31,876 bases of DNA from a virus, in IMG/VR virus record IMGVR_UViG_3300035070_000238, positions 1-31,876 of that record. The stretch is one strand, 5' to 3'. Under the pieces are notes generated by a model. It saw only the letters and a list, made by a program, of their open reading frames with translations. It was not told where the DNA came from and searched no databases. Below are positions 1,830 through 10,439 of this stretch, piece by piece. How positions within the stretch are numbered: position 1 is the first letter of the stretch; every line of letters starts with the position of its first letter. A program made the position numbers and the translations under genes.

Positions 1830-2798
1830 ATGGCAGTATATATACCAAGACTTAGATCACCATTTTTCATAAATAAAACAGCATCCTCAACATCAGGTTC
1901 TGCTGATATGACAATTACAATTAACAGTGTAGACCAATATGTTGTTTCAAAAAACACAACATCTGATGCAGTATCATTTGAAGTATCAGAATTAATCAGA
2001 GATTATTTAGACATTACATGGGATGGTTTATTCCCATATAGCAGCACTACTAAAAACAGTTTGACTATTTATGCAGTAATTAAAATAGAGTTTTATGTAG
2101 GTACTAAAGCAGAAAGAGCTTTGAATCCAAGCACTCCTAGACAAACAATAACAGATGAGATATATGGATTTGATGCTTACAGTGAGTTTAAAGAAGGTGT
2201 TAATAAACAAATAACTTCAGGACAATTACTACAAACTAATACAGTAATGTATTTGCCTGAAACAGGAAACTCATATATCCCATATGAAGTATCTAATGGT
2301 GTAACTTATTATACAGTTGCAGATACTGTAACAGATGGCAGTACAGTTTCAGTAGCAGGTATAAATATTATTATAAAAAGAATATGTGAGCCTATATTTG
2401 ATATTTTAAAAGTAGTGTTTGTAAACAAATATGGAGCATTACAAGAGTTCTACTTTAACAAGAAAAACATACAATCATTAAATGTAAAAGATGAAAGTTA
2501 TAAATCTACACTACTAGCAAATAACACATACTCTACATTAGATCATCAAAAATATAAATACAACAAACAAGCATCAAATAAAATAACTGTTAATACTGGA
2601 TATGTAGATGAAGGTCAATTTGAGCCTATAAAAGAAATGATGTTATCTGAACTTGTATGGATGCAAATTGGAAGTATAGTTTATCCAGTAAATGTTGTTA
2701 GTAATTCTTTAGAAAAGAAAACAAAGACAAATGACAAATTAGTAAACTATTCACTAGATTTAGAGTTTGCATATGATGTGATTAATAATGTTAGATAA
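1830..2798 (+). CDS. distal/minor tail protein (hypothetical)
   Basis: 322-aa beta-rich protein with no catalytic motif that I can see. It starts with PRLRSPFFI, has a VSFEVSELIRDYLDI segment near residues 48-62, and a C-terminal half rich in polar strands (KYGALQEFYFNKKNIQSL; EPIKEMMLSELVWMQIG). I recognise the general type from flavobacterial siphophages, where it sits next to the hub protein. A distal tail or baseplate role is inferred from its place directly upstream of the hub gene, with which it shares a TAATG junction at 2796-2800. It could also be an outer tail-tube decoration. Confidence 0.45.
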   Translation: MAVYIPRLRSPFFINKTASSTSGSADMTITINSVDQYVVSKNTTSDAVSFEVSELIRDYLDITWDGLFPYSSTTKNSLTIYAVIKIEFYVGTKAERALNPSTPRQTITDEIYGFDAYSEFKEGVNKQITSGQLLQTNTVMYLPETGNSYIPYEVSNGVTYYTVADTVTDGSTVSVAGINIIIKRICEPIFDILKVVFVNKYGALQEFYFNKKNIQSLNVKDESYKSTLLANNTYSTLDHQKYKYNKQASNKITVNTGYVDEGQFEPIKEMMLSELVWMQIGSIVYPVNVVSNSLEKKTKTNDKLVNYSLDLEFAYDVINNVR

Positions 2799-5700
2799 TG
2801 AGTGCATATCAACTATATATAAACAATCAAAGAGTAGAGATATTTGATGATGAAAGTGTTAGTTTAACACAAGCAATTCAAGATGTGAGAGATATATCAA
2901 AAGTCTTTACAGACTTTTCTAAACCATTTAGACTTCCTGCATCTAAAGAAAACAACAAAATATTTAAACATTACTATAGGTTTAATTTAGCAACTGGTAC
3001 TGCCTTTGATGCTAGGAAAAAAGTATCAGCAAGAATAGAATTAAACACTATACCATTTAGAGAAGGTAAACTAAAACTAGATGGTGTAGATATGGAAAAC
3101 AACATACCTAAAGCATACAAAGTAACTTTCTTTGGTAATACAGTAACATTAAAAGATGTGCTAAAAGAAGATCAGATTAATACATTAAACTGGTTAAACA
3201 ACTTTAACACAACATACAGTGCTGGTGATGTTTTTTCACTTTTAACAGATGAAGATGGAATAGGAAGTGTTACAGTAGATGACTTAGGCACTAGCACAAC
3301 TTATGAAAGAGCTGTGATTTGTCCATTGATTTCCAATTCAGCTAGACCATATTATGACACTAGTATAGCAGTACCATATACTAATTCTGATGGTTCTGAT
3401 AACTATGAATTAGGTGGTAACATAGGCCCAACAGAATCATCTACACCACCTGCTACAGGATTTACTACAGATGATATACATGGGATGTATTTTGAAGATT
3501 TAACTTATGCCATAAGAGTTCATTTAATTGTAAGAGCAATACAGAATCAATATTCATCAATTAGGTTTAGTGATGACTTTTTTGATTTAGTGCAAGGCCC
3601 TGAGGCATATAGAGAACTTTATATGTTGTGTCAGAATACTGAAGGTAGACAATTTGAAGATATGGGTGTTGCTTTAAAACAAATCTCTGGGTTTTCAACA
3701 GCTACAGCATTAAATGGTAAACTTATTGTACAAAATAATGTAATCTATGTACAAGGTCTTGCTCAAAATGACTTTATTACAGGTGTGTTTAGTTTTGAAA
3801 CAGAAACAGGGTATCCTACTTTTACAGCAAAAGTAAAAAGAGGTGGTGAAGAAGAATACACAAAAACATTTACAGGAGGTACAAACACATTAGGTAGTTT
3901 TACAGTTTTTATGTATAATGCATCACAAGGATATACTTTAGAAGTTGAAACACAAACAGCATTTGTTTTTAAAAACATTACATTTCAAGCAACTGATGCA
4001 GCAGGTAATCAATCAACACACCAAATAGGAACTGTAGATATATCTTTATCTAAAGAGTTTATAATTACAGAACATTTACCTGATTTAAAAATTATAGATT
4101 TTCTTACAGGTTTATTTAAGATGTTTAATCTAACTGCTTTTGAACAAGATGGGATTATACATGTTAAGACATTAGAACAATACTATAGCTCAGGTTCTAT
4201 TAGAGACATAACAGAATATGTAGATCCTACATCAATACAAGTTGATACAGCATTACCATATGAAGAAATAGAATTCAAATATAGATCAACAGGTAGTAAA
4301 CTTGCAAAAAAACACACAACAATAAGCAGCTCTGCATGGGGTGCATTAAAATATAGTAGTAATGAAAATTTAGACAGCAACAATGAAAAATTTGTAGTTG
4401 AAGCACCATTTGAACACTTAAAATTTGAAAAACTATACAACACTGCTAGTAGTACATATGTAGATACAGGTATACAAGTAGGTTGGTTAGCTAATGAAAA
4501 TGGTGAACCATATTTTAAAGATGCAGTTTTATTTATTCCAATATTTAACAAATTAACAACAGGATACACATTAAGATTTTTAAGAGCAAAAGACACTGTA
4601 GGAGGAATAGAAGATATAACTGAATATTGGATGCCAAGTAATTCTGTATCTTTATCACCAACTCAAAATACACAAAACCTTCATTTTAATTTAGAAATTA
4701 ATGAATATTCAGAAGGAACTGGTTTTACTGACACACTTTTTAAAAGATATTATCAATTTTATATAGCTCCTTTATTTAACAGATCCAAAAGAAAAACAAC
4801 AATAAATGCAAGACTACCTAAAAAGTTTATACTTAATTATACACTTGCAGACACAATACAAATTAAAGATGAGTATTATAAGATTAACAACATCACTACC
4901 AATTTATTAACTGGTCAAAGCTCTTTAGAGCTTTTAAATGAAACAAGTGATGTTACTATAGCTGATTCAGATGATACAGGTGGAACAGGTGATTTACAAG
5001 ATGGGCCTGATACAAATGTGTTAAAAGTAGAAAGGTGTGCTGATGGGCAAATACTAGGAGTAGATGTGCCATTGTCAGAGTTTAATTTTCCAAACAATAC
5101 TAGAATCAAATCAACATTAGGAGACAATCCTTTGCTTACATACAAAGTAATAGGTAATGAGGTAGCTGATCAACTAACTGCATTAAATCATATTTATTTA
5201 TATGATTCAGGTTTTTTAGGTTGTGAAAACACAACTCCTCCACCACCTCCTACATATTACTATGGACTAGAAAGATGTTCTGATGGAGTACAAACCTTTA
5301 GAACAGGGCAAGATGTAAGTTCAATTTCTTTAGCTATTACACAAAAAGTAGAAGATGCAAGTAATGTAGAATATATAGTTTTAAATAACAATACAGAAAC
5401 AACAACTCAGGTAGGTGGTACAACAGTAACAAGTGTTGGAAATGTTACAGCAATAACACCAACTACTTTAGGATGTGGTACACCACCTCCAACAGTATAT
5501 TATTATGAATTAGAAAAATGTGATAATGCTGCAATTAAATATTATGGGTTTAGTCCATCATCAGGACTTACAGGTCAGAGAATATATCAAAATGCATGTT
5601 ATGAATTATCATCAAGTTCTTTAACAGGAACTATACAAATAGACACACTATCAACTTGTACATGTCCAGTTTATTATTATACTTTAAATGACTGTACTAA

Positions 5701-8008
5701 TAATTCAACAATAGTACATTACACATTTTCCTCAAATCCTAATTTAGCAGGTACAAATAGATTTTATTTAAATGTTTGTTATTATGTAGCATCTACATCT
5801 ACAACAACTGGCACAATAGATATAGACACTTTACCATCATGTGTTTGTGAAACACCTTCTGTTACATATTTTTATGGGTTAGAAAGATGTTCAGATGGGT
5901 TGCAAATTTACAGAACTCAACAAGATGTAGATACTATATCTTTATCAGCATCACAAAATCAAAGAGTTGAAGATCCTAACAATATAGAATATATTGTAAT
6001 AAACAATGAAACAACATCTACACAAGTAATTAATGGAGTTACAGTTATAAATGTAGGAAATGTAACTGCAATTACTCCTACTGCTTATGGATGTGCAGTA
6101 GCACCTACTCCTACATATAATTATTGGATTATTCAAAGATGTAATGGTTCATTAGGTAATTATCAATCAATAAGAGATTTAGATGGTCAAGCAACAACTT
6201 TAGTTTTAAATGATGTAATATCAATGCCAGATGGTTTTTGTTATAAAATTACAGCATCAACTACAAACACAAGTAGTAATGATTGGTCTACTAAATATGA
6301 TAATTGTTTAGTATGTCAAACTGAAAATCCTGATGAAGTAACACCTCCTCCACCAACAGAAAGGTATGAGCTTAAAAAATGTTCAGATGATTCTACAGGG
6401 CATTATACACCTGAATCAACATCTGATATAGTATTAATAGTAGATGCAAATGGTGTAAATGGTTCTAGGGTTATAGATCAAGATGGATTAATTTATACAG
6501 TAATTGGAACTTCAACAAATGCAGCAAATATATCATCAATTTCAGACTTAGGCACAACAGGATGTCCTTCTGCACCAGTAGTACCTGCAACATCATATTG
6601 GTTATTGCAAAATTGTGAAACAAGTACAGGTGGATATGTTTCAGAAGAAACAACAGCAGACTTGCCAAATCTAACAGAAGATTCTGTTAATGGTTCTAGA
6701 GTACAAAGTGTAGATGGTTCTATTTATATTGTGTATGGTCAAACATCAGATCCTAGTCAATATTCAAGTGGTGTAGTATCTGTTATTAGCTTAAACATTA
6801 CTGGATGTCCTGATGAAACACCACCACCTGCTCCATATTATTATGAATTAGCACAATGTGCATCAAATATTATATATATATCAGGTCAAGAAATAACAAC
6901 TATAAATTTACAAGTTGGAGATTTTGTTTATCAAACATCTACACCTGATGTATATTATCAAGTTGTTGGAACAAGTCAATCAGGAACATCAATAGGCAGT
7001 GTAACTAAATCAACATTAACAGACTGTCCTTTATATTGGGATTTAAAACAATGTGGCACTTTACAGCTAGGTTATAGAAGTGATAATACAACACTTGAAT
7101 TGCCTAACCTTGTAATGAATGAAACTAATGGTACAAGAGTGCAAGATGCAAATGGTATATTTTATATTGTAGTAGGTAAAACTACTTCAGGAGCAAATGT
7201 AGGTACTGTAACAGACACTGGTAGTACAGGTTGTCCAACACCACCACCTTCTGCTAATTATTATTCATTACAGAAATGTGAAGATTCATCAACAGGATAC
7301 AGATCTCAACAAGATACTACACAAATAACATTTAATACAAATGATGTGGTACAAGATTCAGCAGGTACAACATATTTAGTAACAGGTACTGTTACATCAG
7401 GTACTAATGCAGGTGTAATGAGTGCTACATTATTATCAAACTGTACAGATGTTGCTCCTCCTACACCACCTGCTAGTCAAGGCCCATATTATGCTCAATT
7501 TATAAGTTGTGATGATCCTACAGGTGCAGTAGTATATGTAGTTAGTCAAAATCAAGATATATCAACATGGTGGGTATTGCAAGATGGATCTGCTAATAGT
7601 TATGAATGTTATAGATGGGTAAATAGTAATCAAGGAGCTAATCCAAGAGATATTAGTGAATTTACAATATTTAATGCAGGTAATACAGCAGGAGAGAACT
7701 GTATTGAATGTCAGGAAAATGTACCTACACCTCCACCAGTAGTAACACCACCTCCATTAGCTATATGTGGTGAGCAAAGTTTGTATTATGCATCTTCTGC
7801 AAGTGATTTATGTAATGAATCAACACCTAAAACAGTATATATGGATGCTAACTCAATAGATGAAGCATCTATTATATATTTAGATTCTACATGTACTACA
7901 CATTTAAGTACAGCAAGGTATTTTGCTAACACTCCTTCAGGACAATATTACTATTGGAATGGAAGCAACATACAAGGCCCATATACAAACAGTTGTGATA
8001 TTCAATAA
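2798..8008 (+). CDS. tail hub/tip protein with tandem Cys-domain array
   Basis: 1736 aa, the largest protein here. Residues about 1-730 look like a Bacteroidota phage baseplate hub: YQLYINNQRVEIFDDESVSL, then TDFSKPFRLPASKENNKIF, then a region with ITEHLPDLKIIDFLTGLFKM at about 420-440. From about residue 740 to the end the protein is a chain of about a dozen domains of 60-90 residues. Each opens Y(Y/W)xLxxC and most close near xxGC or xxC, many being separated by proline-rich linkers such as TPPPPPT and VTPPPPTE. The last domain (from about residue 1655) is different. The N-terminus probably caps the tail tube. The array is probably surface-exposed and could bind the host or stack between subunits. 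The gene ends 6 bases before the oxygenase gene. Confidence 0.6.
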   Translation: MSAYQLYINNQRVEIFDDESVSLTQAIQDVRDISKVFTDFSKPFRLPASKENNKIFKHYYRFNLATGTAFDARKKVSARIELNTIPFREGKLKLDGVDMENNIPKAYKVTFFGNTVTLKDVLKEDQINTLNWLNNFNTTYSAGDVFSLLTDEDGIGSVTVDDLGTSTTYERAVICPLISNSARPYYDTSIAVPYTNSDGSDNYELGGNIGPTESSTPPATGFTTDDIHGMYFEDLTYAIRVHLIVRAIQNQYSSIRFSDDFFDLVQGPEAYRELYMLCQNTEGRQFEDMGVALKQISGFSTATALNGKLIVQNNVIYVQGLAQNDFITGVFSFETETGYPTFTAKVKRGGEEEYTKTFTGGTNTLGSFTVFMYNASQGYTLEVETQTAFVFKNITFQATDAAGNQSTHQIGTVDISLSKEFIITEHLPDLKIIDFLTGLFKMFNLTAFEQDGIIHVKTLEQYYSSGSIRDITEYVDPTSIQVDTALPYEEIEFKYRSTGSKLAKKHTTISSSAWGALKYSSNENLDSNNEKFVVEAPFEHLKFEKLYNTASSTYVDTGIQVGWLANENGEPYFKDAVLFIPIFNKLTTGYTLRFLRAKDTVGGIEDITEYWMPSNSVSLSPTQNTQNLHFNLEINEYSEGTGFTDTLFKRYYQFYIAPLFNRSKRKTTINARLPKKFILNYTLADTIQIKDEYYKINNITTNLLTGQSSLELLNETSDVTIADSDDTGGTGDLQDGPDTNVLKVERCADGQILGVDVPLSEFNFPNNTRIKSTLGDNPLLTYKVIGNEVADQLTALNHIYLYDSGFLGCENTTPPPPPTYYYGLERCSDGVQTFRTGQDVSSISLAITQKVEDASNVEYIVLNNNTETTTQVGGTTVTSVGNVTAITPTTLGCGTPPPTVYYYELEKCDNAAIKYYGFSPSSGLTGQRIYQNACYELSSSSLTGTIQIDTLSTCTCPVYYYTLNDCTNNSTIVHYTFSSNPNLAGTNRFYLNVCYYVASTSTTTGTIDIDTLPSCVCETPSVTYFYGLERCSDGLQIYRTQQDVDTISLSASQNQRVEDPNNIEYIVINNETTSTQVINGVTVINVGNVTAITPTAYGCAVAPTPTYNYWIIQRCNGSLGNYQSIRDLDGQATTLVLNDVISMPDGFCYKITASTTNTSSNDWSTKYDNCLVCQTENPDEVTPPPPTERYELKKCSDDSTGHYTPESTSDIVLIVDANGVNGSRVIDQDGLIYTVIGTSTNAANISSISDLGTTGCPSAPVVPATSYWLLQNCETSTGGYVSEETTADLPNLTEDSVNGSRVQSVDGSIYIVYGQTSDPSQYSSGVVSVISLNITGCPDETPPPAPYYYELAQCASNIIYISGQEITTINLQVGDFVYQTSTPDVYYQVVGTSQSGTSIGSVTKSTLTDCPLYWDLKQCGTLQLGYRSDNTTLELPNLVMNETNGTRVQDANGIFYIVVGKTTSGANVGTVTDTGSTGCPTPPPSANYYSLQKCEDSSTGYRSQQDTTQITFNTNDVVQDSAGTTYLVTGTVTSGTNAGVMSATLLSNCTDVAPPTPPASQGPYYAQFISCDDPTGAVVYVVSQNQDISTWWVLQDGSANSYECYRWVNSNQGANPRDISEFTIFNAGNTAGENCIECQENVPTPPPVVTPPPLAICGEQSLYYASSASDLCNESTPKTVYMDANSIDEASIIYLDSTCTTHLSTARYFANTPSGQYYYWNGSNIQGPYTNSCDIQ
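5015..7760 (+). repeat. array of twelve tandem Cys domains in the hub protein
   Basis: Coding repeats begin near 5015, 5255, 5498, 5672, 5867, 6122, 6362, 6596, 6836, 7034, 7259 and 7487. Consensus: Y(Y/W/F)xLxxCxD..., a middle VxDxxGxxYxVxGTxxxG, and a final (T/L)xxGC or C. Units 2 and 5 (GLERCSDG...NVTAITPT) are close relatives. Units 3 and 4 resemble each other, and units 7, 8, 10 and 11 form a third type, so the order 2-3-4-5 is A-B-B-A. Proline-rich linkers of varied length separate many of the units. Confidence 0.75.
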
Positions 8009-8014
8009 AAAGTT

Positions 8015-8632
8015 ATGATTAAAGAAATAGAAAATTTTATAGATAAAGCAGAAGCAGATCACCTAGTTTATTTGATTGATAAGTTTGCACATAAGTCTAC
8101 TGTTGTAGGTAATGGTCAGCAACACAATAAATTTGATACTGCTAGGACATCATATTCAGCAACATTAGATTCTAAAAATCCAACTATTAAAAGAATACAC
8201 CAAAGAATAGCTAGATATTTAGGTGTACCTATAACAAAAGGAGAAGTGTTGCAAGGCCAGAGGTATCAAAAAGGTCAATACTTTAGAGAGCATCCTGATT
8301 ACTTTACAGGAGAACATTATGATATGAACTGTTTAGCATCAGGTAACAGAACATACACTTTTATGCTCTATTTAAATGATGATTTTAAAGGAGGAACTAC
8401 AAACTTTAAACATTTAAAAAGAGAAATTAAACCACAAGCATATAAAGCTGTTGTATGGAACAATTTACACATGGGAAAACCTGATCCTTATAAGCTACAC
8501 TCAGGTGAAGAAGTGTTAGAAGGTACAAAATATATAGTTACATCATGGTGGAGGGAGAATAACTGGAATGGAAGTGATGATTATAAAGAATACAAGAAAA
8601 AATTAAATTCTAATCAATTAAGTATTATATAA
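8015..8632 (+). CDS. prolyl 4-hydroxylase-type 2OG-Fe(II) oxygenase
   Basis: 205-aa non-haem iron dioxygenase of the P4H/2OG-Fe(II) family, which uses 2-oxoglutarate and O2 to hydroxylate a substrate. The double-stranded beta-helix motifs are all present: YQKGQYFREHPDYF holds the iron ligands His93 and Asp95, TFMLYLNDDFKGGTTNF is the family's YLN...GGxTxF signature, and His162 (YKLHSGEEV) is the distal ligand. Lys172 (GTKYIVTSWW) is the expected 2OG-binding residue. The protein therefore looks catalytically intact and is of the usual length for a single-domain enzyme. It lies 6 bases after the proline-rich hub gene and before the tape measure, which suggests a virion protein as substrate. The substrate is not shown by sequence; hydroxylation of the hub linkers is an inference. 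Confidence 0.85.
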   Translation: MIKEIENFIDKAEADHLVYLIDKFAHKSTVVGNGQQHNKFDTARTSYSATLDSKNPTIKRIHQRIARYLGVPITKGEVLQGQRYQKGQYFREHPDYFTGEHYDMNCLASGNRTYTFMLYLNDDFKGGTTNFKHLKREIKPQAYKAVVWNNLHMGKPDPYKLHSGEEVLEGTKYIVTSWWRENNWNGSDDYKEYKKKLNSNQLSII

Positions 8633-8635
8633 GTA
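8623..8635 (+). promoter_or_regulatory. late start element TATTATATAAGTA
   Basis: TATTATATAAGTA matches the element at 14871 base for base and the one at 99 with one difference. It lies over the end of the oxygenase gene and 2 bases before the ATG at 8638. As a -10 box it would start transcription within a few bases of that ATG. Confidence 0.35.
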
Positions 8636-8637
8636 GG

Positions 8638-8787
8638 ATGTTAAAGAATATTATAGATCTATTACAGGTGGTAAATGGTGAAACTGAGAGCATTAGATTT
8701 GCACAAGGTTCACATTATTTGCCTTCTACTTTTAAAAAAGGCTACAAATTAGCTAAAAAGATTGCAAAATTTGATAAACAAGACTAA
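8638..8787 (+). CDS. 49-aa basic protein before the tape measure
   Basis: Small protein that I do not recognise: an N-terminal helix (MLKNIIDLLQVVNGETESI), then FAQGSHYLPSTF, then a Lys-rich amphipathic end (KKGYKLAKKIAKFDKQD). It starts at the ATG just after the TATTATATAAGTA element, and its stop shares one base with the tape measure start (TAATG). The tight coupling on the right and the lack of any other reading for this 154-base gap support a real gene. It could be a tape-measure cofactor, which is a guess from position only. Confidence 0.55.
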   Translation: MLKNIIDLLQVVNGETESIRFAQGSHYLPSTFKKGYKLAKKIAKFDKQD

Positions 8788-10439
8788 TGAAAATAGGTAA
8801 ATACAAAATAAGCATAGAGGCTGATAATAAAAAAGCTGTTCAAGAAATCCAAGAGGTTAATGATGAATTAAAAAACACTAAAACCAACATGGAAGATGTT
8901 GATGCAACAGGAGATGCTTTAACAGGTGGTCTTGTTTCATCATTTAGAAATGTGCAAAAAGGTATAAAAACAGCAATTGGAAGCCTAAAAACTTTAAAAG
9001 GTGTGTTAATTGCTACAGGTATAGGTGCATTTGCATTAGCTATAGGTGCAGTTACAGCAGCATTTACTAGTTCAGAAGAAGGTCAAAATAATTTTATTAA
9101 AATAACAAAACAGATTGGTGTAGTTGTAGGTAATGTTACAGATATACTTGCAAGTTTTGGTAATGCCATACTTAATGTAGGAAGATATCTTGGAGCAAAG
9201 TTCAAAGGTGATGCAGCAGCAGCAGAAGAAGCTGTTAATGGTATTAAAGATAGTTTTAAAGAAGCTACAGATGGTATAAAGAACTTTGGTGAAGAAACAA
9301 GAAGGGAGATTGAGACTGTTGGTAAACTTGCAGATGCACAAGCAAGAGGTGATAGATTGCAAAGAAGATTAATAGTTGAAAGAGCAAAAGCAGATAGAGA
9401 GAGAGCTGACTTATTAGAGAAAGCTGTAGATAGAGAAAACTTTACAACAGAACAGAGAATTGGTTTTTTACAAGAAGCAAGTGCATTAGAAGAAGAAATT
9501 ACAAACAAAGAAATAGATCTTGCAAGGATAAGATTAAATAATAAGATAGAAGAAAATAAACTATCAGGATCTACTAAAGAAGATTTAGATGAAGAAGCAC
9601 AATTAAGAGCTGATCTTATTACTCTAGAAACATCTAGACTTACAAAACAAAAAGAAGTAACATCTCAGATTATAGGATTAAAGAATGAGGAGAAAGCTGC
9701 TAATGATGCAGCAACAAAAGCTGCACAAGATGAGATAACAGCACAAGAAGCTGCACTACAAAGTTTTGAGGATGCAGAAAGAGAAGCACTAGCAATTAAT
9801 GAAGATGAAAAGAGAGAATTACAGGTAGCTAAAACACAAGAGAGGTATGATGCTCTTATAGAACAAGCAAAGAAGTTTGGTAGAGATACAGCAGCATTAG
9901 AAGATGCAAGAACAAGAGCTATTGCACAAATAACAAAAACAGGAGAAGAAGAAATAGTAGAAATAGTAGAGGAAGAACAAAAGAACAAATATGATATAGC
10001 TTTAAAATTTACTGCACTAGGTTTAAGTTTAGCAACAGAAGGCTCAAATGCAGCTAAAGCATTAGCAATAGCAAATGCAATTATATCTACTTATTCAGGT
10101 GCTGCACAAGTGTTAGATGATCCTGAACTGGGATTATTTGCCAAGATAGCAGGAGTTGCTACAGTATTAGCTACAGGGTTTACACAAATTAGAGCTATTA
10201 AATCAACTGATGTACCTGTGCTAAGTGTAGGAGGTGTTACAGCAGGAGGAGCTAGTTCAGCCCCTGCTCCACAAATACAGCCACCTGCTTTTAATATAGT
10301 AGGTGCATCACCTATTAATCAGCTTACAGAAGCTATAGCAGGACAGCAACAAGAACCAGTAAGAGCATATGTAGTATCAAATGATGTTACAACAGCTCAA
10401 AGTGTAGATAGAAACATTGTACAAACAGCAGGAATATAA
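8787..10439 (+). CDS. tail tape measure protein
   Basis: 550-aa tape measure, which sets tail length and is later ejected into the host with the DNA. The N-terminus (KYKISIEADNKKAVQEIQEV) is helical. A hydrophobic glycine/alanine stretch lies at about residues 72-95 (GVLIATGIGAFALAIGAV). A long charged coiled coil covers about 170-400, and a second apolar stretch is at about 415-475. The end holds QPPAFNIVGASPINQL and RAYVVSNDVTTAQS, an ending that I recognise from Bacteroidota phage tape measures. At roughly 1.5 angstroms per helical residue the tail would be short, about 80 nm. No sheath gene is seen, so a siphovirus is likely. The chaperone is not adjacent, as it usually is, but at 111. 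Confidence 0.85.
   Translation: MKIGKYKISIEADNKKAVQEIQEVNDELKNTKTNMEDVDATGDALTGGLVSSFRNVQKGIKTAIGSLKTLKGVLIATGIGAFALAIGAVTAAFTSSEEGQNNFIKITKQIGVVVGNVTDILASFGNAILNVGRYLGAKFKGDAAAAEEAVNGIKDSFKEATDGIKNFGEETRREIETVGKLADAQARGDRLQRRLIVERAKADRERADLLEKAVDRENFTTEQRIGFLQEASALEEEITNKEIDLARIRLNNKIEENKLSGSTKEDLDEEAQLRADLITLETSRLTKQKEVTSQIIGLKNEEKAANDAATKAAQDEITAQEAALQSFEDAEREALAINEDEKRELQVAKTQERYDALIEQAKKFGRDTAALEDARTRAIAQITKTGEEEIVEIVEEEQKNKYDIALKFTALGLSLATEGSNAAKALAIANAIISTYSGAAQVLDDPELGLFAKIAGVATVLATGFTQIRAIKSTDVPVLSVGGVTAGGASSAPAPQIQPPAFNIVGASPINQLTEAIAGQQQEPVRAYVVSNDVTTAQSVDRNIVQTAGI

Follow-up and report, generated by a model that had tools for sequence, protein, structure and literature searches.

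Why a marine phage should encode a prolyl-hydroxylase-type enzyme directly behind a tail gene, and what this enzyme acts on, is the question raised by this locus. 2-Oxoglutarate (2OG) oxygenases are common in phages and mostly unexplained, and are usually classed as auxiliary metabolism or repair. The window, meaning the whole 31,876-base IMG/VR virus record analyzed here, carries such an oxygenase, hereafter ox1, next to a putative tail hub rich in proline linkers. An original prediction, made from the DNA letters, proposed that the enzyme hydroxylates these linkers. The analysis below indicates that ox1 is probably a prolyl hydroxylase acting on the proline runs of the adjoining tail protein.

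The tail protein and the adjoining oxygenase

The features of the locus are as follows.

2798-8008, plus strand: tail protein (putative hub), 1736 aa; open reading frame and hub family alignment
4985-8005, plus strand: C-terminal repeat array with proline-run linkers, the proposed substrate; shuffle test
5237-5251, plus strand: PPPPP linker immediately ahead of a YYYGLERC domain
5483-5491, plus strand: PPP linker ahead of YYYELEKC
6344-6355, plus strand: PPPP linker ahead of RYELKKC
6821-6829, plus strand: PPP linker ahead of YYYELAQC
7241-7249, plus strand: PPP linker ahead of YYSLQKC
7457-7471, plus strand: PPTPP linker
7730-7756, plus strand: PPPVVTPPP linker
8015-8632, plus strand: ox1, P4H-like 2OG-Fe(II) oxygenase, 205 aa; Pfam PF13640, P4Hs of the PDB, predicted fold
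8787-10439, plus strand: putative tape-measure-like protein, 550 aa; phrog_32985

In the tail protein, a conserved N-terminal part (about residues 1-729) is followed by an array of repeat domains that contain Cys and are joined by proline linkers. Its nearest annotated relative is gp46 of Nonlabens phage P12024L, to which the N-terminal part is homologous (28% identity, E 3e-65), and the label "hub" is suggested by gene order. Sequence comparison of the N-terminal 730 or so residues with solved structures gave no match, nor did a search of the whole protein against Pfam, crAss_MUZ included. All proline runs quoted in the original prediction were found in the translation; the region start given there, 5015, falls within the tail gene, close to the beginning of the array rather than at the gene start. 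The C-terminal 1007 residues contain 19 PP pairs and seven runs of at least three prolines, where shuffled sequences averaged 3.9 and 0.2, and none of 10,000 shuffles reached either value. Since most of the runs directly precede the start of a repeat domain, which is marked by a YYYxLxxC-like motif, they are read as linkers. The oxygenase is followed, ahead of the tape-measure-like gene, by a 49-codon open reading frame (8638-8787) whose stop overlaps the next start (TAATG).

The enzyme is a complete P4H-like 2OG-Fe(II) oxygenase. It matches Pfam 2OG-FeII_Oxy_3 (PF13640) at E 9e-14 and 52.6 bits against a curated cut-off of 27, and among solved structures its sequence is closest to prolyl 4-hydroxylases (PDB, E 4e-18). 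The four catalytic residues that had been claimed, His93 (codon 8291-8293), Asp95 (8297-8299), His162 (8498-8500) and Lys172 (8528-8530), are all present and remain unchanged in 63 of 63 aligned relatives. An AlphaFold model (pLDDT 89) returned P4Hs as all of its 17 highest fold matches (Z 17-25), led by an algal P4H with bound (Ser-Pro)5 (3gze; Z 24.8, 181 aligned residues, 2.0 A); the substrates of PDB enzymes are given here as in the entry titles. On sequence and model, ox1 is best read as a predicted active prolyl hydroxylase. Close pairs of ox1 show dN of 0.09-0.11 and dS of 0.66-0.77, and the resulting dN/dS of about 0.12-0.16, well under 1, indicates purifying selection.

The gap between the tail gene and ox1, from 8008 to 8015, is six bases as originally described, and no promoter- or terminator-like site was found in it on the plus strand, so that co-expression of the two genes is likely. 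Among bacterial genomes the best match to ox1 reached 39% identity, so the search turned up no close copy in a prophage or host. The closest oxygenases of cultured phages are about 30-40% identical (Erwinia Y3, Salmonella Sen-NF, Microcystis Mel-JY01 and a 6-kb faecal record); they were considered as tail-linked counterparts and rejected, as their annotations place them outside tail modules. The distant oxygenases of Erwinia Y3 and Salmonella Sen-NF (L323, L324) both adjoin an asparagine synthase gene.

Linker type and slot enzyme in the hub family

Hub loci collected by scans of viral contigs were grouped into clusters at 90% identity. Each was assigned to a class from the composition of its tail and from the content of the slot, whose borders are the hub and the tape-measure-like gene; the latter is conserved 3' of the hub or slot in most loci. 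The oxygenase occupied the slot in 18 of 18 non-redundant hub clusters with at least four PP pairs outside poly-Thr, and in none of 17 long-tail hubs with fewer than four (Fisher 4e-9, with L128 entered as a cluster of at least four PP and no ox1, and with hub relatedness uncorrected). The slot was empty in 11 long-array clusters that lack proline runs, and all 56 short-tail clusters were devoid of the oxygenase. Two hubs with 9 and 12 PP pairs (L011 and L118) both stand beside it. A survey of whether oxygenase and linker array co-occur and are lost together had been proposed with the original prediction; in the hub family, the two are present together and absent together.

Other linker types were accompanied by other enzymes. 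Three hub clusters with P-x-P tails carry a second putative oxygenase (ox2) and a glycosyltransferase resembling plant hydroxyproline O-arabinosyltransferases (HPAT), with a third gene as well where the contig extends far enough. In four poly-Thr hub clusters the slot holds another putative glycosyltransferase; one of them is L128, whose six PP pairs all lie within poly-Thr linkers and which has this gene instead of ox1. Poly-Thr hubs directly followed by a DxD-containing gene were seen at L140:5977-6861, L128:5535-6461 and L129:9634-10518, and also in L297 and L301, the gene of L129 belonging to phrog_4417; such a hub and DxD gene may form a mucin-like O-glycosylation pair. Profile comparison of the poly-Thr-associated with the HPAT-like glycosyltransferase gave nothing significant.

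In the hub tree, ox1-bearing hubs form a single clade (support 99/97), so that the hub result amounts to approximately one gain of ox1. The sister of this clade is L122, a hub with an array of the same kind (27.7% identity), one PP pair and no oxygenase. Similarly, L124 is nested among the P-x-P hubs and is 82.7% identical to L193 across the 677-aa N-terminal part of the hub; L193 has the P-x-P tail with the ox2 and glycosyltransferase genes, whereas L124 has neither the tail nor the cassette. Both contrasts run in the expected direction, although each could be explained by one block exchange.

A fused sister enzyme and the HPAT-like glycosyltransferase

Beyond the hub family, the survey found a sister of ox1 (about 39-55% identical) that forms a fusion protein with another putative oxygenase domain (ox1+ox2). 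Of 44 clusters, 34 have a proline-rich gene directly upstream of the fused gene, and when the distance is widened to three genes the count is 40 of 46; the background rate was 15 in 1999 genes. The observed value in a within-contig permutation test was 31 of 38, whereas 20,000 permutations of position averaged 9.2 and never exceeded 19. Distant oxygenase homologues, used as a negative control, had a proline-rich neighbor in 1 of 30 cases. The partners of the fused enzyme are mostly crAss-like muzzle proteins, many of them dominated by P-x-P repeats, and the crAss muzzle family scored over its cut-off in 24 of 37 records of fused-oxygenase contigs. Proline-rich partners in L071 and L080 did not cluster with other partners. 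Hub and muzzle proteins have repeat domains that fall in common clusters, and for this reason the two contexts are not fully independent. In L030 (532-9956), five crAss-like tail-region genes, muzzle included, stand in a row interrupted by one small open reading frame, each with long P-T-P or P-A-P stretches.

Oxygenases kept without a proline-linker array, named originally as the observation that would count against the prediction, were encountered in a few loci only. These are L021, where a 73%-identical oxygenase has no proline runs nearby, and the fused-enzyme loci L056, L059 and L067, which have no proline-rich gene. In L061 the proline-rich tail gene is farther away and on the opposite strand, and the contigs of fused-enzyme loci L068 and L202 end upstream. 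Two genes before the close homologue in L021 lies a gene (7411-9543) whose 710-aa product contains about twenty GGLQPS-type repeats and is possibly a different proline substrate.

A GT-A protein with similarity to HPAT is often encoded by the next gene 3' of ox2 or of the fused oxygenase. Of 21 members, 11 match Pfam HPAT (PF23452; best E 1e-6), mostly below the cut-off; the one from L071 exceeds the curated value (26.2 versus 23.9) and that from L125 does not. The model of this protein (pLDDT 94) adopts a GT-A fold, with glycogenin and LgtC as matches at Z of about 15, and the DxD motif is invariant across the alignment. Phage records gave no match to it. In L071, a 287-kb jumbo-phage contig, a P-x-P-rich protein, the HPAT-like protein, a P4H-like protein and an ox2-family protein are encoded consecutively, which by sequence is the gene set that a hydroxyproline-glycoprotein pathway would need. 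The proposal that hydroxyproline might serve as a glycosylation site thus gains from the relatives, in which the HPAT-like gene follows, but not from the window, where a scan of the open reading frames found the hydroxylase and no glycosyltransferase.

Profile comparison of ox2 with ox1 gave nothing significant. A near-invariant HxD...H, a sub-threshold Pfam match and an annotated cyanophage homologue mark ox2 as a putative oxygenase. The family matches PHROG 2954 (L125:11996-12580 and L071:8560-9063), which is labeled "ferrochelatase"; this label was set aside in view of the near-invariant HxD...H, and the motif suggests that it is wrong for the ox2 family.

Proposed mechanism, alternatives and known counterparts

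Based on these findings, a model is proposed in which ox1 is produced together with the tail protein and would convert some linker prolines to hydroxyproline, either ahead of tail assembly or in its course. Within polyproline stretches, hydroxyproline would favor an extended, stiff linker, through which host range or stability of the virion may be affected, as originally suggested. In the P-x-P relatives, the second putative oxygenase and the hydroxyproline-type glycosyltransferase would lead further, to extensin-like glycosylated stalks. The enzyme-substrate link is partly supported, by co-occurrence in the hub family and by the sister enzyme that adjoins proline-rich tail proteins elsewhere.

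The main weakness of this reading is linkage: tail arrays can be exchanged, hub and muzzle proteins have repeat domains in common, and neighboring genes move together. Array and enzyme are adjacent and may move as one block, which renders their co-occurrence less independent. The oxygenase might therefore hitch-hike in an exchangeable tail block while its target is a host protein or a small molecule. Adjacency, the single clade of ox1 hubs and the repeat domains common to hub and muzzle proteins are all compatible with this, and the fold also fits the EF-Tu-modifying P4Hs 5v7y (Z 20.9) and 4iw3 (Z 17.3). Pure hitch-hiking is nevertheless disfavored, because arrays without proline runs, such as that of L122, lack the enzyme and because different linker chemistries are met by different enzymes: PP runs by ox1, P-x-P by ox2 with the HPAT-like glycosyltransferase, and poly-Thr by another putative glycosyltransferase. 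Furthermore, L071 and L080 are examples of the same pairing with proline-rich proteins that cluster separately. We consider hitch-hiking unlikely; the matching between linkers and enzymes is most simply explained if the linkers are what the enzymes act on.

It is very unlikely that ox1 hydroxylates Asn, Asp or Lys of the Cys-containing repeat domains instead of linker prolines. 2OG oxygenases of this fold do act on various residues, and the repeat domains adjoin the linkers; the top fold and sequence matches, however, are prolyl hydroxylases, similar repeat domains are present in L122, which has neither PP runs nor the enzyme, and P-x-P repeats dominate many partners of the fused enzyme. Least probable among the readings considered is an auxiliary metabolic or nucleic-acid-repair gene that stands in the tail module incidentally. 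Distant homologues do sit among metabolic genes, and published cyanophage 2OG oxygenases were discussed as auxiliary genes or in DNA repair (PMC9146016). Against this, the close clade lies near proline-rich genes far more often than background and within-contig permutation allow while the distant group does not, and the search of bacterial genomes found no close homologue (best 39%).

Hydroxylation of the linker prolines by ox1 thus remains the preferred reading for the window. A broader one, to which we give even chances, is that several kinds of phage (the P12024-related hub group, crAss-like phages and the jumbo-size contig) modify the linkers of their own tails with a slot enzyme matched to linker chemistry: a prolyl hydroxylase for proline runs, oxygenases with a hydroxyproline glycosyltransferase for P-x-P, and another glycosyltransferase for poly-threonine. 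A search of the open-access literature by full-text words yielded no paper linking phages to HPAT, hydroxyproline or the hydroxylation of proline in tails, and tail self-modification by such phages is apparently unreported so far. If the broader reading is true, extensin- and mucin-like glycoprotein stalks would be a general feature of phage tails, and the hydroxyproline would be the first in a phage as far as the literature was searched. If the ox1 clade hydroxylates tail linkers, one group of phage 2OG oxygenases would gain a concrete neighboring substrate, and a post-translational modification of phage tails would become testable by ordinary mass spectrometry.

Several known systems resemble the locus in part. 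Nonlabens phage P12024L gp46 shares the N-terminal hub part, but it has 750 residues in all and no proline array, and P12024L has no close oxygenase. The crAss-like muzzle proteins (crAss_MUZ, PF25731) are likewise tail-end proteins with proline-rich tails, located beside the fused oxygenase, although they belong to a different family from the window's hub. The P4Hs of Chlamydomonas (3gze, 2jig) and Bacillus anthracis (3itq, 5hv0) have their sequence family and predicted fold in common with ox1, together with the HxD...H iron ligands, the Lys for 2-oxoglutarate and the RTS motif; the (Ser-Pro)5 peptide with which the algal enzyme was crystallized is chemically similar to the linkers of the window. 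In contrast to these enzymes, to which it is about 30% identical, ox1 is phage-encoded, lies directly 3' of a tail gene and is known from sequence and model. The collagen prolyl hydroxylase of chlorovirus PBCV-1 (5c5t, Z 20.4) is a virus-encoded P4H with the fold of ox1; PBCV-1, however, is a eukaryotic virus whose enzyme is named for collagen-like sequences, and no Gly-X-Y repeat was seen in the translated array of the window. In plants and algae, P4H and HPAT act on extensins. The GT-A proteins of the relatives, with weak to moderate similarity to HPAT (PF23452), follow an oxygenase and a P-x-P tail protein, whereas the window is without one; if the proposed modification is true, these phages would provide a prokaryotic-virus counterpart to the hydroxyproline glycoproteins of plants and algae.
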